Below, in pieces: positions 57,875 through 64,000 of a stretch of DNA of 64,000 nucleotides; the first letter of the stretch is position 1; every line of letters begins with the position of its first letter. A program made the translations under genes and the position numbers. The notes under the pieces are model-generated. The model searched no databases, was not told where the DNA came from, and saw only the letters and a list, made by a program, of their open reading frames with translations. Origin of the DNA: Tepidimicrobium xylanilyticum (lineage in GTDB: Bacteria > Bacillota > Clostridia > Tissierellales > Tepidimicrobiaceae); contig NZ_FNNG01000012.1 in assembly GCF_900106765.1 (NCBI RefSeq), positions 1-64,000 of the forward strand. The letters are read 5' to 3'.

Positions 57875-59650
57875 CTAATCATTGACATTTATTCCATAAT
57901 TGTCTATTTTATAATGTAAAGTACTACGAGGAATTTTTAAAATATTTGCTGCCTTGGCTATATTTCCTTTTGATTCTTTTAAAGCTTTGTTAATTAGATA
58001 CTTTTCATAACTATCTAATAGCTCTCGTAACCCCGTTTCTTTCTTATCAAGCTTGTCCAAAACACTCATATCTTCATTTCTTTCTACATCATGTATTATG
58101 TATTCTGGTATCATATCCTTAGTTATAAAATCCTTCCTACATAAAACAACCATCTGTTCTACTACATTTCTAAGTTCTCGTACATTTCCTTTCCATTTAT
58201 AAGATGTAAGAATATTAATTACATCCGTATCAATCCCTGTTAAATCTTTACCATATTCTCTATTTAATTTCTCTAAAAAAAATTTAATAAACAAAACAAT
58301 ATCTTCTTTCCGCTCTCTCAAAGGAGGTATTTCTATTTTTATTACATTTAAACGATAATATAGATCCATTCTAAATTTTTTCCTTTGCACCAATTCTTCT
58401 AAATCCCTATTAGTTGCAGAAATTATCCTCACATTTATCTCTTTATCACGCTCTGATCCCAGCCTTCTTATGGCATTATCCTGTAAGGCCCTTAGCAATT
58501 TAGACTGCATGTCCATGGGGAGATCTCCTATTTCATCCAAAAAAAGAGTTCCATTATTAGCAAGCTCAAAGTAGCCAGCCTTTCCTTTCCTACTAGCCCC
58601 TGTAAATGCCCCTTCTTCATAGCCAAAAAATTCAGATTCAAATAGTTCTCTTGGAATTGCACTGCAATTTACAGGAATAAATTCTCCTTCTAAGCCGCTA
58701 ATTTTATGGATATATTTTGCAAAAACCTCCTTTCCTGTACCGCTTTCTCCTAAAATTAATATTGGTGCACTGCTTTTTGCTGCAAGTTCTGCAATTTCTA
58801 TTTTTTGTTGTATTACTTTACTTTTACCTATCACTAATCCCTTTTCCCTATTAGATATCTTTTCTAACTCTTCTTTTAAAAAATTCACCTTTTCTGTAGC
58901 TTTTTTTAGCTTATCAGAAAGTTGTTTCATTTCTGTAACATCCTTGTCTGTACTTACAACCCCCATAAATTCATTGTTTAATATGATTGGGGCTGCGCTA
59001 ATAACAATATGTGTTCCATCTCTAGGTTCATGATAGCAATTTTCGATAACCTTTCTTGTTTTCAACACTTTCATATTTATTGCATTAGGAAAAAATTCAT
59101 CTAATGGCCTTCCTATAATTTTTTCTTTAGGTAAATTATATAGTTTTTCTGCATTTTCATTCCATACAATAACAATGCCTTTATTGTTTATCACACATAC
59201 TGCCTCATGAATATAATTTATTGCAGTCTTTAAAATTTCTGATGTTTCTTCAACTTTCATATAATAAAAGTCCCTGATATGTTCTTGCCTAATCACTCCA
59301 ACAATTTTCCCTTCTTTTAATACAGCTAGTCGTCCCACATTATTTTTTAGCATTATATTTCTGCATATTAGTAGATCGGAATCCTCAGAAACGCTTATAA
59401 CTCCCTTTGTTGCAATGTCTATAGCACATTTTTGATTTATATTTGACTCCTTTTCTCTTACAAAATTGCATATGTCTTTCATAGTGATTATCCCCTGCAC
59501 CTTGTCAGCCTTATCGTATATAAACACTTCCTTTTTATAATCTCTTATTAATTCTTCTTTAATCTCTGATATAGGGGAATCCTCATATGCAATTAGAAAA
59601 TTCTTGTCCATTACATCTTTTACCAAAATTTCTTTTAAAACCAAAGACAT
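57875..59650 (-). CDS. prdR: sigma-54-dependent activator PrdR
   Basis: This is a 591-aa regulator. The ATG at 59650 (MSLVLKEILVKDVM) follows GGGGTGTGGG. Domains in order: CBS pair (about 10-130), PAS (about 145-245, ICVINNKGIVIVWNENAEKLY-type), coiled linker, AAA+ central domain with Walker A GESGTGKE, the sigma-54 contact loop EGAFTGASRKG and Walker B GTLFLDEIGDLP, and a Fis-type HTH (GNIAKAANILKIPRSTLHYKI). In C. difficile PrdR activates prd genes in response to proline. The adjacent sigma-54 promoter supports the same role here. Confidence 0.95.
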   Translation of the reverse strand: MSLVLKEILVKDVMDKNFLIAYEDSPISEIKEELIRDYKKEVFIYDKADKVQGIITMKDICNFVREKESNINQKCAIDIATKGVISVSEDSDLLICRNIMLKNNVGRLAVLKEGKIVGVIRQEHIRDFYYMKVEETSEILKTAINYIHEAVCVINNKGIVIVWNENAEKLYNLPKEKIIGRPLDEFFPNAINMKVLKTRKVIENCYHEPRDGTHIVISAAPIILNNEFMGVVSTDKDVTEMKQLSDKLKKATEKVNFLKEELEKISNREKGLVIGKSKVIQQKIEIAELAAKSSAPILILGESGTGKEVFAKYIHKISGLEGEFIPVNCSAIPRELFESEFFGYEEGAFTGASRKGKAGYFELANNGTLFLDEIGDLPMDMQSKLLRALQDNAIRRLGSERDKEINVRIISATNRDLEELVQRKKFRMDLYYRLNVIKIEIPPLRERKEDIVLFIKFFLEKLNREYGKDLTGIDTDVINILTSYKWKGNVRELRNVVEQMVVLCRKDFITKDMIPEYIIHDVERNEDMSVLDKLDKKETGLRELLDSYEKYLINKALKESKGNIAKAANILKIPRSTLHYKIDNYGINVND

Positions 59651-59792
59651 AATCCCACACCCCATATAACTAATAAATAATATCTTTGATTAATATATTA
59701 TACTATTTGGAAAAATTATACTAGAGTTCATTGTTATTAATTTAACCTATAAATTGTCTAGGATAGATCTTATATATATTTTTGGATAACTT

Positions 59793-59832
59793 TTTACATG
59801 GATTTTACATTTCTAATACAATAGATTTTACA
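59793..59832 (+). promoter_or_regulatory. Pho-box-like direct repeats before pstS
   Basis: TTTACA occurs at 59793, 59804 and 59827, with a weak copy (AATACA) at 59815, so the period is about 11 bp. This is the pattern of PhoP boxes TT(A/T)ACA. A -10-like TATGCT lies near 59842. Induction under phosphate limitation is inferred. Confidence 0.7.
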
Positions 59833-59886
59833 TATACAAGATATGCTTATATTGAATATAGATTTAAGAAAGGTGGGAAATGATTT

Positions 59887-60795
59887 ATGAAAAGATTTTT
59901 AAGTACATTTTTAATTGCTCTTATAACAATAATCATGATAGTAGGTTGTACAAACAAAGTAGAAGATAGTAACTCCACCAACCCTAGTTCTAATAATAAC
60001 AGCTTCGATACTAATAGGACAATCAATGTAATTACAAGGGAGGAAGGTTCAGGAACTAGAGGAGCTTTTGTTGAAATAGTAGGAATACTAGAAAAAGACG
60101 AAAATGGAAATGAAAATGATAGAACTTATTCAGAAGCAATAGTACAAAATAGCACCAATGCAGTTATGACTACTGTGGCAGGGGATGAATATAGCATAGG
60201 ATATATTTCCCTTGGTTCATTAAACAACAGTGTAAAAGCGGTAAAGGTAGATGGAATTGAAGCTACAGCCGAAAATATACTAAATGGTTCTTATAAGGTA
60301 GCAAGGCCTTTTAATCTTGCATATAAGGGGGATTTAACTCCTTTAACCCAGGACTTCTTAAATTTCATACTTAGTGCAGAAGGACAGGAAATTGTAGCTA
60401 ATGAAGGGTATGTACAAGTTGATACTCAAGCACCAAATTATGAAGCTAATAGTCTCCAATCGGGAACCATAGTTGTAGCAGGGTCTACTTCCGTCACTCC
60501 TTTAATGGAAAAATTTGTTGAAGCATACCAGAAGTTAAATCCTGACGTGTCTATAGAAATTCAATCTACCGGTTCTTCTGCTGGTATGCAGTCTGCTATG
60601 GAAGGTACAGCTAATATAGGCATGGCTTCAAGGGAATTAAAGGAATCCGAACTCAAGGAACTCAAAAATGTAGTCGTAGCATTAGATGGTATTGCAATCA
60701 TAGTGAATAACAATAACCCAACAGACAATTTAAGTATTGACCAAATAAAATCCATCTATATGGGTGAAATTACTAATTGGAATGAAATAGAGTAA
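59887..60795 (+). CDS. pstS: phosphate-binding protein PstS, circularly permuted lipoprotein
   Basis: This is a 302-aa lipoprotein with lipobox MIVGC near residue 21. The order of PstS parts is changed: the usual C-terminal block TREEGSGTRGAFVE and FILSAEGQEIVANEGYV comes first (50-178), and the usual N-terminal block GTIVVAGSTSVTPLMEKF ... GSSAGMQSAMEG ... IKSIYMGEITNWNEIE follows (195-302) and ends the protein. In normal PstS, ITNWNEI leads directly into TREEGSGTR. All phosphate-binding elements are present, so it should be functional. It is the first gene of a Pho-regulated pst operon. Confidence 0.9.
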   Translation: MKRFLSTFLIALITIIMIVGCTNKVEDSNSTNPSSNNNSFDTNRTINVITREEGSGTRGAFVEIVGILEKDENGNENDRTYSEAIVQNSTNAVMTTVAGDEYSIGYISLGSLNNSVKAVKVDGIEATAENILNGSYKVARPFNLAYKGDLTPLTQDFLNFILSAEGQEIVANEGYVQVDTQAPNYEANSLQSGTIVVAGSTSVTPLMEKFVEAYQKLNPDVSIEIQSTGSSAGMQSAMEGTANIGMASRELKESELKELKNVVVALDGIAIIVNNNNPTDNLSIDQIKSIYMGEITNWNEIE

Positions 60796-60807
60796 ACTCC
60801 CCTTCAA

Positions 60808-60882: not shown

Positions 60883-61746
60883 ATGAAATCTAAATCTGTT
60901 GAAAGCATTATGAAAGGAATATTCTTTATATCCGCGACCGTATCGGTAATTGCCATAGTACTCATAAGCTTTTTTATATTTGCTGGAGGAATTCCATTTA
61001 TAAAAGAATATGGGTTAAAGGATTTTATATTTGGAACCCTCTGGAAACCTAACAATACTCCCTCGGCCTTTGGAATCCTTCCCATGATAATGGGTTCCAT
61101 TTATGTTACTATAGGAGCCATTGCCATAGGGGTTCCTATAGGTATTTTAACTGCAATCTATTTAGCCAAGTTTTGTGATAAAAAGATATATAAATTCATT
61201 AAGCCCTGCATAAACCTAATGGCTGGAATACCCTCCATTGTTTATGGCTTTTTTGCTTTAGTAGTAATTGTGCCAGTAATTAGGGATATTTTCGGCGGAA
61301 CTGGTATGAATATAATTACAGCTTCAATTTTATTGGGAATTATGATCCTTCCCACAATTATAAATATCTCTGAAGCAGCCATTAGAGCAGTTCCTCAAAA
61401 CTATTATGAAGGAAGCATTGCTCTTGGAGCTTCCCATGAAAAATCCATCGTCTTTGTAGTATTACCTGCTGCAAAATCTGGCATATTGTCCAGCATAATC
61501 CTTGGAATAGGTCGTGCAATTGGAGAAACTATGGCAGTCATATTAGTAGCAGGAAATCAGGCTCGCATGCCAGCAGGATTAATAAAAGGAGTAAGAACCC
61601 TTACTACTAATATAGTAATGGAAATGGCTTATGCCACAGATGAGCATAGGCAAGCTCTAATTGCAACTGCTACCATACTATTCTTATTTATACTAATTAT
61701 AAATGGAAGCTTTTTAGTAATTAAAAGGAGAGCTAATAATGGATAG
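60883..61746 (+). CDS. pstC: phosphate ABC transporter permease PstC
   Basis: This is a 287-aa protein with six membrane helices. FGTLWKPNNTPSAFGILPMI and [17 protein letters not shown] are typical of PstC. The EAA loop appears as EGSIALGASHEKSIVFVVLPAAKSGI. It forms the channel with PstA. The start follows AGGTGA. It overlaps pstA by 8 bp. Confidence 0.95.
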   Translation: MKSKSVESIMKGIFFISATVSVIAIVLISFFIFAGGIPFIKEYGLKDFIFGTLWKPNNTPSAFGILPMIMGSIYVTIGAIAIGVPIGILTAIYLAKFCDKKIYKFIKPCINLMAGIPSIVYGFFALVVIVPVIRDIFGGTGMNIITASILLGIMILPTIINISEAAIRAVPQNYYEGSIALGASHEKSIVFVVLPAAKSGILSSIILGIGRAIGETMAVILVAGNQARMPAGLIKGVRTLTTNIVMEMAYATDEHRQALIATATILFLFILIINGSFLVIKRRANNG

Positions 61747-62557
61747 AGTAATAAGGATAACAGTAAAAATATCAGCTTTTATTACATTTAGTGCTTTATT
61801 CTTCATAATAGGGTATATTTTATTAAAAGGAATTCCAAATTTAGACATATCCCTATTTTCGTTAAAATACACAACAGAGAACATGTCCCTTTTCCCAGCT
61901 ATGGTTACGACTTTAATGTTAATACTATTGACTTTAGTGATAGCTACACCCATAGGAATATTTACTGCCTTCTATCTTGTAGAGTATGCAAAAAAGGATA
62001 GTAAAATAGTTGAAATAATTAGGATAGCAACGGAAACCTTATCTGGAATACCTTCAATAGTATATGGACTATTTGGAATGTTGTTCTTCGTTATTAGACT
62101 TAATTTTAAATATTCCCTGTTAGCAGGGGCTTTAACAGTTGGAATTATGGTACTACCGCTTATAATTAGAACTACAGAAGAAGCTTTGCTTTCCGTAGAT
62201 AATTCCCTAAGGGAAGCCAGCCTTGCTCTTGGAGCTGGTAAATTACGTACCATATTTAAGGTAGCTCTTCCAGTAGCTATGCCAGGGATTCTTTCTGGAG
62301 TCATACTTTCTATAGGCCGTATTGTAGGGGAAACTGCTGCTTTAATGTTTACATTGGGAACTGCTGCAAAAATCCCAGAAGGACTTTTTTCCTCTGGTCG
62401 TACTTTGGCCCTTCATATGTACGTGCTTTCTACTGAAGGCCTCCATGTTAATGAATCCTATGCAACAGGAATCATCCTATTGATTGTAGTGTTGATTGTA
62501 AATGGATTATCTACATTATTAAGTAATAAATTGACAAAGGGGAATGAAAATGAGTAA
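61739..62557 (+). CDS. pstA: phosphate ABC transporter permease PstA
   Basis: This is a 272-aa protein with six helices. Family marks are [28 protein letters not shown] and the EAA loop [21 protein letters not shown]. It pairs with PstC. It overlaps the pstB start region by 8 bp. Confidence 0.95.
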
Positions 62558-63302
62558 ATTTATAGTTAAGAATATGAATTTATATTATGGTAATTTCCAT
62601 GCACTAAAAGATATAAGTATTAATATAGAGAAAAACGAGATAACAGCCCTTATAGGACCTTCAGGCTGTGGAAAGTCTACTTTATTAAAAAGCTTAAATC
62701 GTATGAACGACCTAGTTGAAGGTTGCAAAATTGAAGGAGAAATATTGCTTGATGGAGAAGATATATATTCAGAGGATTTTAATGTGAATCTGCTTAGAAA
62801 ACGAGTAGGAATGGTATTTCAAAAACCAAATCCTTTCCCGATGAGCATATACGATAATATAGCCTATGGTCCAAGAACTCATGGAATAAAAAATAAATCC
62901 AAATTGGACGAAATCGTTGAAAGAAGCTTAAAGGCTGCAGCTATTTGGGATGAGGTGAAAGATGATCTTAAAAAGAACGCTCTTAGAATTTCAGGAGGAC
63001 AACAACAAAGACTCTGCATAGCAAGGGCATTAGCTGTGGAACCAGAGGTGCTATTAATGGATGAACCCACCTCTGCTCTCGATCCCATTTCCACAGCAAA
63101 AATAGAAGAATTAATCCAGGAATTGAAAAAAATTTATACGATAGTAATAGTGACCCATAATATGCAACAGGCTACTAGGGTTTCTGATAAAACGGCTTTT
63201 CTATTAAATGGCAAATTAATAGAATTTGGTCCAACCGTTGAGCTGTTTTCCGTCCCAAAGAACAAGAAGACGGAAGATTATATAACGGGCAGATTTGGTT
63301 AA
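62550..63302 (+). CDS. pstB: phosphate ABC transporter ATPase PstB
   Basis: This is a 250-aa ATPase. The ATG at 62550 ([14 protein letters not shown]) is preferred over one 6 bp upstream because of AAAGGGG spacing. Walker A is GPSGCGKST, the signature is [16 protein letters not shown], and Walker B is [12 protein letters not shown]. The Q-loop [14 protein letters not shown] is the PstB-specific form. It energises phosphate uptake. Confidence 0.97.
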
Positions 63303-63323
63303 TGAATTGAAAGGATGATAAAT

Positions 63324-63974
63324 ATGATTAGGAGTAAATTTGATAAAGATTTAGATTTACTCAATGATGAATTGATAGAAATGGGTAATCTAATAGAAAG
63401 TGCTATTAATGCCGCTATAACAGCTCTTAAGGAACAGAATGTAGACTTAGCAAAGCAAATAGTGGAAAGCGATAAGGAAATAGACGATATGGAAAGAACT
63501 ATTGAACAAAGATGCTTAAGGTTATTACTCCAACAACAGCCTGTGGCTAGAGATTTAAGGTTTATATCCTCCGCTTTAAAGATGATAACCGACATGGAGC
63601 GAATTGGAGATCAAGCAGCAGATATTTCAGAAATAGCCATAAGATTAGCCGATCAAACCTACTTAAAGGAATTAGTCCATATACCTCAAATGGCAGATGT
63701 GGCAATTAACATGGTAAAAACTAGTATAGATTCCTTTGTAAGAAGGGATATAGAATTAGTAAAAAAAGTAATAGCCTATGACGATAAAGTAGATGAATTA
63801 TTTGATATAATAAAAAATGAATTAGTAGATTTAATAAGAGAAAATATAGAATATAAAGAGCAAGTAATAGATTTATTGATGATAGCAAAGTATTTAGAGA
63901 GAATAGGAGACCACGCGCAAAATATAGTTGAATGGGTATATTTTGCAATAAAAGGCGAGCACTATACTTGGTAG
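63324..63974 (+). CDS. phoU: phosphate signalling protein PhoU
   Basis: This is a 216-aa protein. The ATG at 63324 (MIRSKFDKDLDLLNDEL) is preferred to an ATG 9 bp upstream that sits on the ribosome site. Two three-helix PhoU repeats each contain the acidic metal motif: DMERIGDQAADISEIA near 90 and YLERIGDHAQNIVEWV near 190. PhoU links Pst to the PhoR-PhoP system as a negative regulator. Confidence 0.96.
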   Translation: MIRSKFDKDLDLLNDELIEMGNLIESAINAAITALKEQNVDLAKQIVESDKEIDDMERTIEQRCLRLLLQQQPVARDLRFISSALKMITDMERIGDQAADISEIAIRLADQTYLKELVHIPQMADVAINMVKTSIDSFVRRDIELVKKVIAYDDKVDELFDIIKNELVDLIRENIEYKEQVIDLLMIAKYLERIGDHAQNIVEWVYFAIKGEHYTW

Positions 63975-63985
63975 AGGTGGTTTAG

Positions 63986-64000
63986 ATGCCATTAATCTAT
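63986..64000 (+). CDS. start of the next gene, probably a PhoP-type response regulator (partial)
   Basis: GAGGTGG, then ATG CCA TTA ATC TAT (MPLIY) runs off the window. Clostridial OmpR-type regulators after phoU often start this way (MPLIYxVEDD). Only five codons are seen. Confidence 0.4.

Follow-up and report, generated by a model that had tools for sequence, protein, structure and literature searches.

The 302-amino-acid lipoprotein encoded on the forward strand at positions 59887 to 60795 of the window (the whole stretch of 64,000 nucleotides of Tepidimicrobium xylanilyticum that was analyzed) is a natural circular permutant of the phosphate-binding protein PstS, and its gene heads a complete pstSCAB-phoU operon. 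A sequence-only reading of this DNA had proposed such a permutation, in a protein that starts with a TREEGSGTR half after its lipobox and ends at ITNWNEIE. Both features were seen in the translated open reading frame, and the permutation itself was confirmed by sequence matches in swapped order, a high-confidence structural model, and the solved structure of a permuted relative. The reading frame is complete from lipobox to stop codon. A lipoprotein signal peptide, called by eye (59887 to 59949), ends at the lipobox cysteine, Cys21, which is invariant in all 14 aligned permuted proteins and conserved at 90% or more in a 45-sequence alignment. A 21-residue linker then leads into the TREEGSGTR half. 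This half (residues 43 to 178; 60013 to 60420) carries the REEGSGTR anion loop and corresponds to the C-terminal part of an ordinary PstS, while residues 190 to 302 (60454 to 60792), which run from AGSTSV to ITNWNEI, correspond to the N-terminal part; both were delimited by profiles, alignments, and rotation. Between them lies an 11-residue junction linker (residues 179 to 189; 60421 to 60453), placed by the rotation scan and gap counts, which connects the old C terminus to the old N terminus. The protein ends in ITNWNEIE. The tryptophan of the end motif is kept in at least 90% of 45 aligned permuted sequences; in two Anaerococcus records (L075 and L111) the ITNW.E. motif is without its tryptophan, and the proteins end in EIKNTGELN and ELRNTSKLGK.

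Profile searches recovered the two halves in swapped order. Positions 6 to 125 of PF12849 matched residues 189 to 300 of the window protein, and in a profile scan of the genome, profile positions 130 to 267 (60013 to 60381) lay upstream of profile positions 6 to 126 (60451 to 60801). Against TIGR02136 (PstS_2) the protein reached 215.3 bits (cutoff, 206.6) when two stretches were added up; these were swapped and did not run collinearly along the profile. This swapped order of the profile stretches indicates that the protein is not a PstS of ordinary topology. The profiles of E. coli-type PstS were missed (TIGR00975, 67.5 bits against a cutoff of 205; NF008171, 29.8 bits against 339). A phmmer search of the PDB returned one collinear match, 4H1X, over residues 43 to 301 (E value of 2.2e-73), and 4Q8R, 4GD5, and 1TWY each matched as two swapped stretches. 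The mature protein, unrotated and in all 260 rotations, was also compared with four ordinary-order PstS proteins from the same phylum, with 100 shuffles each; all four relatives that were entered are reported. Rotation restored a full-length match, as in a natural permutant, to all four and raised their scores about 1.8-fold (359 to 642, 331 to 599, 326 to 608, and 316 to 554), the highest shuffle score being 74. Cutting before residue 174 or 179 scored best, cuts at 171 to 195 did nearly as well, and the rotated protein was identical to that of locus L024 at 140 of 247 aligned residues. The C-terminal half precedes the N-terminal half and the break follows the ITNW.E. motif, which is the arrangement of 4H1X. 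In neither the phmmer search nor the rotation scan did the unrotated protein give a collinear full-length match to a standard PstS, an outcome that would have contradicted the sequence-only reading.

Structure prediction and comparison, which the same reading had recommended, led to the same result. The AlphaFold model of the window protein had a mean pLDDT of 90.8, with 45 aligned permuted sequences as input (the window protein and 44 of the best 80 of at least 486 relatives). Foldseek ranked 4H1X first (E value of 7.4e-39; next best, 1.3e-6), and VIA-align superposed the model on it with a Z score of 37.1 and an rmsd of 1.3 Å over 257 of 257 residues at 48% identity; the TM-score was 0.96 by target length and 0.82 by query length. 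The full-length fold of the predicted model is the same as that of 4H1X (PstS2). Ordinary chains aligned essentially by one half, which is the signature of a permutation. 1TWY (model residues 40 to 178 against chain residues 138 to 276), 4GD5, 4Q8R, 4OMB, and 4N13 covered only the model from residue 40 to 178-184, against their C-terminal halves, while 9L8J (model residues 189 to 302, chain residues 2 to 117) and 4PQJ (190 to 268) aligned only by their N-terminal parts. The alignments of two further ordinary PstS structures, 4EXL (model residues 40 to 252) and 4JWO (40 to 189), reach beyond a clean half.

The operon was described as complete and as lying under a Pho-like box, and both descriptions were borne out. 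Downstream of pstS and on the same strand follow, in order, the permease genes pstC (60883 to 61746; TIGR02138, 280.3 bits, cutoff 196.45) and pstA (61739 to 62557; TIGR00974, 262.2 bits, cutoff 193.45), the ATPase gene pstB (62544 to 63302; TIGR00972, 431 bits, cutoff 343.2), and phoU (63315 to 63974; TIGR02135, 227.3 bits, cutoff 130.25), all above curated cutoffs and in the arrangement of a Pst importer operon. A phoP-like response regulator gene, recognized by eye from its translation, begins at 63986 on the forward strand and runs off the window at 64000; a phoR-like histidine kinase gene comes next (L117, 3987 to 4649 and 4652 to 5713 for the two genes, named by eye). Upstream of pstS, at 59792 to 59809 on the forward strand, an exact match to a Pho box, TTTTACATGGATTTTACA, consists of two TTTTACA repeats 11 bp apart, and a third Pho-type repeat, TTTTACAT, is found at 59826 to 59833. 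The box is the sole match in the window, where 0.14 matches were expected at one mismatch or fewer, and 13 of 100 shuffles had one. Among the best 80 of at least 486 relatives, 79 had enough upstream DNA for this survey, and in 69 of these a comparable box precedes the permuted pstS at a per-locus shuffle P value of 0.05 or lower, with shuffles that preserve base composition only. The divergent gene upstream of pstS (57875 to 59665, reverse strand) encodes a PrdR regulator (NF041552, 842.3 bits, cutoff 795), beyond which two open reading frames appear by eye to be proline reductase-like. The same genome carries, on contig C15 (L118, 4739 to 8175), a second Pst-like operon with pstS-like, pstC, pstA, and pstB genes. 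The binding protein of this operon is in ordinary order and has the anion loop RDIGGGAHEVF versus RE.GSGTR.AF; it lacks the GSGT loop, and its ligand may be different.

The permuted PstS is a lineage trait that is wider than the clostridia and not unique to the window genome. The guess that it might be a lineage trait was right, and the recommended survey of related genomes found the same permuted order in many relatives. In the sample of the class, 58 of 291 genomes had a permuted match (56 nearly full length and two partial across the junction); the phylum sample gave 14 of 398, and a sample of the class to which an Aerococcus genome belongs gave 5 of 299. The counts were made by eye among the matches listed, and some genomes are in both the class and the phylum sample. 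Under the rule of one match that starts at query residue 45 or earlier and reaches residue 290 or beyond, 56, 14, and 5 genomes qualified, and the class count adds two shorter junction-crossing matches (G460, residues 36 to 227, and G631, residues 142 to 301). G588 was counted despite a stop in its match; locus L137 has an open permuted reading frame. Left uncounted were G558 in the class sample (one half only) and, in the phylum sample, the double-PstS genomes G311 and G354, G152 (residues 147 to 301 and then 45 to 179, the ordinary order), and G086 and G153 (ordinary gene matches running through stops). Of the 291 genomes in the class sample, 156 had any match at an E value of 1e-10 or lower. 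Of the 58 with a permuted protein, 50 had no other scored match at this threshold, part of the first-look candidates per genome having been scored; G504 and G610 had only a permuted pair among their scored matches. The pairs are of neighboring permuted pstS matches (G504, contig 12; G610, contig 14).

Named records with permuted PstS include ones from Tissierellia, Peptoniphilus, Anaerococcus, Lachnospiraceae, Oscillospiraceae, Peptococcaceae, and Acidaminococcaceae and, within the Lactobacillales, from Granulicatella, Aerococcus, and Desemzia. At least 486 relatives of the permuted query were confirmed, and the named loci, being the best 80 of them, are biased toward permuted forms; pstC follows the permuted pstS in 79 of the 80, the exception being L041. 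The Desemzia locus (L064, 5905 to 12783) has a permuted pst operon with an ordinary pst operon directly after it. Permuted PstS also occurred in metagenome bins named Helicobacteraceae and Coriobacteriia (L065, L077, and L108). We do not accept these bins as proof of spread outside the Bacillota, since their PstS sequences nest among Bacillota rows, and binning error (or transfer) is possible.

Split or partial matches are all that single-profile searches return, which would also suit an ordinary PstS that had been cut, misassembled, or deprived of a domain. The likelihood of this is vanishingly small, and truncation or assembly error is ruled out by the complete reading frame, with lipobox and stop, in an intact operon, by the finding of this order in independent genomes (all 80 named loci, the best 80 of at least 486, with L109 cut by a contig end), and by the crystal structure 4H1X, which has the same permuted order. 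Nor does a missing domain lie downstream, as the 87 bases between the pstS stop and pstC are too short for another half. A match of residues 1 to 73, on the signal peptide and linker, to the phage profile PF25682 of Pfam (22.3 bits, below the cutoff of 27) was taken as chance. With the permutation accepted as real, the next question is whether it happened once or several times independently at the same hot spot. The gap between the half matches is 11 to 13 residues in 103 of 129 permuted open reading frames and the second half is followed by 0 to 8 residues in all 129 (duplicate loci included in both counts); together with the corresponding loop of 3 to 8 residues in 34 ordinary reading frames, these trailing residues place the break at one place. 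The 129 reading frames comprise 117 distinct sequences, which were taken on to tree building. Recurrent permutation is suggested by a quick PstS tree of 110 rows (thinned from 153 distinct), which needs two changes because the divergent L022 falls outside the permuted clade. It is also suggested by four OpuAC entries, which align with the model in the same order over nearly its full length (207 to 216 residues, Z scores of about 10, 8 to 11% identity); these alignments and the permutation reported among glycine betaine-binding proteins in passages of PMC2395249 indicate that the fold tolerates such breaks. However, one change is enough once long rows are dropped and rows are thinned. In a careful PstS tree, built with the halves restored to order, without the long branches L162, L002, and the L092 paralogue, and with permuted rows thinned to 36, the 36 permuted of 70 rows were split off by one branch (support of 94/88), which was present in 93% of 200 bootstrap trees. 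A tree of PstC, which is itself unpermuted, built from 60 of 140 sequences, set 31 of 60 rows apart as permuted systems (71/96; 73% of bootstrap trees, in a bootstrap that was unsettled) and kept L022 among them. Both trees lend moderate support to a shared ancestry of the window protein and the remaining permuted PstS proteins, and 4H1X, which is not itself a tree row, had only permuted sequences among its ten best-scoring rows, with Granulicatella L068 as the closest (155 of 257 residues identical). We consider several independent permutations improbable; the agreement of the careful PstS tree with the PstC tree favors, with moderate support, one old permutation event that would have been co-inherited with the operon.

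The statement that all binding loops had been kept also held, as R51, E52, G54 to R58, G199, S200, S202, S230, G233, S248, and R249 are invariant in 45 permuted sequences, including that of the window. Each of these loop residues presumably has a role in binding, and the anion-loop residues of the TIGR02136 family are present in the window protein. With the loop residues invariant, phosphate capture should be unchanged by the swap, and the window protein most likely binds phosphate like any PstS. Phosphate would be bound between the two lobes and handed to PstCA as in other Pst systems. A different role for the permuted protein, in binding another oxyanion or chiefly in signaling phosphate status, is very unlikely. 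In its favor, Asp56 of E. coli PstS has no counterpart at the matching place in the window protein (S248 or R249). The missed E. coli-type profiles (67.5 bits for TIGR00975, cutoff 205) and the second, ordinary-order Pst-like operon of the same genome point in the same direction. Against this stand the invariant anion-loop residues, the pst gene order, the Pho box, and the two-component neighbors, as well as the part that pneumococcal Pst2 takes in phosphate uptake according to passages of PMC4913102.

The window protein is best explained as a circularly permuted lipoprotein that binds phosphate for a high-affinity Pst importer. In its chain a short linker connects the old N and C termini, and the new termini are in the short loop after ITNWNEI. 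A single event is the probable origin: pstS would have been duplicated in tandem and the outer halves lost, after which the permuted gene would have been passed on together with the operon, perhaps with occasional horizontal transfer. Single-chain double PstS proteins of the order N-C-N-C are found in two genomes of the phylum (G311 and G354; L020 and L021), which shows that an intermediate of the type required for this route does occur. Their middle part has the permuted order of the window protein; they differ in that one chain holds two complete ordinary modules. Their genes (L119, 7850 to 9481, and L120, 9632 to 11224; 527 amino acids from the first start codon) come from genomes of one family, contain similar repeats, and lie upstream of pstC, pstA, pstB, and phoU in both genomes, and each lipoprotein possibly has two phosphate-binding modules. 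As a direct ancestor the double PstS was rejected, because it groups inside ordinary PstS and is not sister to the permuted rows, and it serves as an analogy only.

In ordinary PstS, lobe I is split and lobe II is continuous. The model of the window protein has long strands at residues 139 to 146 and 260 to 273; if these are the lobe crossings, lobe I would be continuous, lobe II would be split between the two ends of the chain, and the lipid anchor would leave from lobe II, an assignment based on predicted secondary structure. It is conceivable, but rather unlikely, that the permuted PstS marks a separate class of Pst importer in which the anchor shift and the continuous lobe I alter tethering, opening, and docking. 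Such a class would have kinetics or PhoU signaling unlike those of ordinary Pst and would dock on its own co-inherited PstC-PstA, and it would account for the permuted-only genomes and for the keeping of both forms in pneumococcus and Desemzia. We consider it very probable that the window protein is a permuted Pst binding lipoprotein with the fold and binding proposed above and, probably, a single origin by duplication.

The permuted order over the whole chain, as in the window protein, is also that of PstS2 of Streptococcus pneumoniae (SP_2084, 4H1X). 4H1X is labeled PstS 2 of this species, and we equate it (strain TIGR4) with the PstS2 of PMC4913102 (strain D39) by name match. In passages of that article, the pneumococcal pst2 operon is described as having its own phoU, as the window operon does, but no recognizable Pho box, unlike the window operon, and as being expressed constitutively in high phosphate. 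Zheng and others report there that Pst2 is active in phosphate uptake and controlled by PhoU2, and they term Pst1 and Pst2 evolutionarily distinct (PMC4913102); the string "permut" is absent from the main text. PBP-1 of Clostridium perfringens (4Q8R, 4GD5) shares the REEGSGTR-type loop and 47% identity over the matched half with the window protein, but has the ordinary order of halves, and the window protein aligns with it only as two swapped stretches. The CPSARST article (PMC2395249) lists, in passages on binding proteins, circular permutation among glycine betaine-binding proteins, molybdate-binding proteins, and CysB, which provides a precedent in the binding-protein superfamily. OpuAC and other glycine betaine-binding proteins are a case of natural permutation within the same two-lobed superfamily and differ in ligand. 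PstS is absent from section 11 of that article, and a term search of it for phosphate-binding and 1TWY gave nothing. A search of the open-licence literature, which other wording could escape, found no report of permutation in PstS; the swap is unremarked within the literature searched and may be in print elsewhere.

The permuted PstS is a natural experiment in protein topology within a core nutrient importer, apparently from one old swap that was co-inherited with the partner permease and left the binding residues without visible loss. Family profiles break such proteins into two partial matches, and alignments or trees blind to the swap can misplace them. S. pneumoniae offers a natural pair, PstS1 (4EXL) and PstS2 (4H1X), both with solved structures, that is suited to studying the influence of lobe order and anchor position on an ABC importer. 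The case is striking as protein evolution, and its physiology should be regarded as ordinary unless the swap proves to affect function. Two Lachnospiraceae records contain a second, divergent permuted PstS-like protein (L103, 2347 to 3024, and L092, 1412 to 2341). In L103 the gene closely follows phoP- and phoR-like genes, which were assigned by eye, and this divergent protein could be a phosphate sensor partner.
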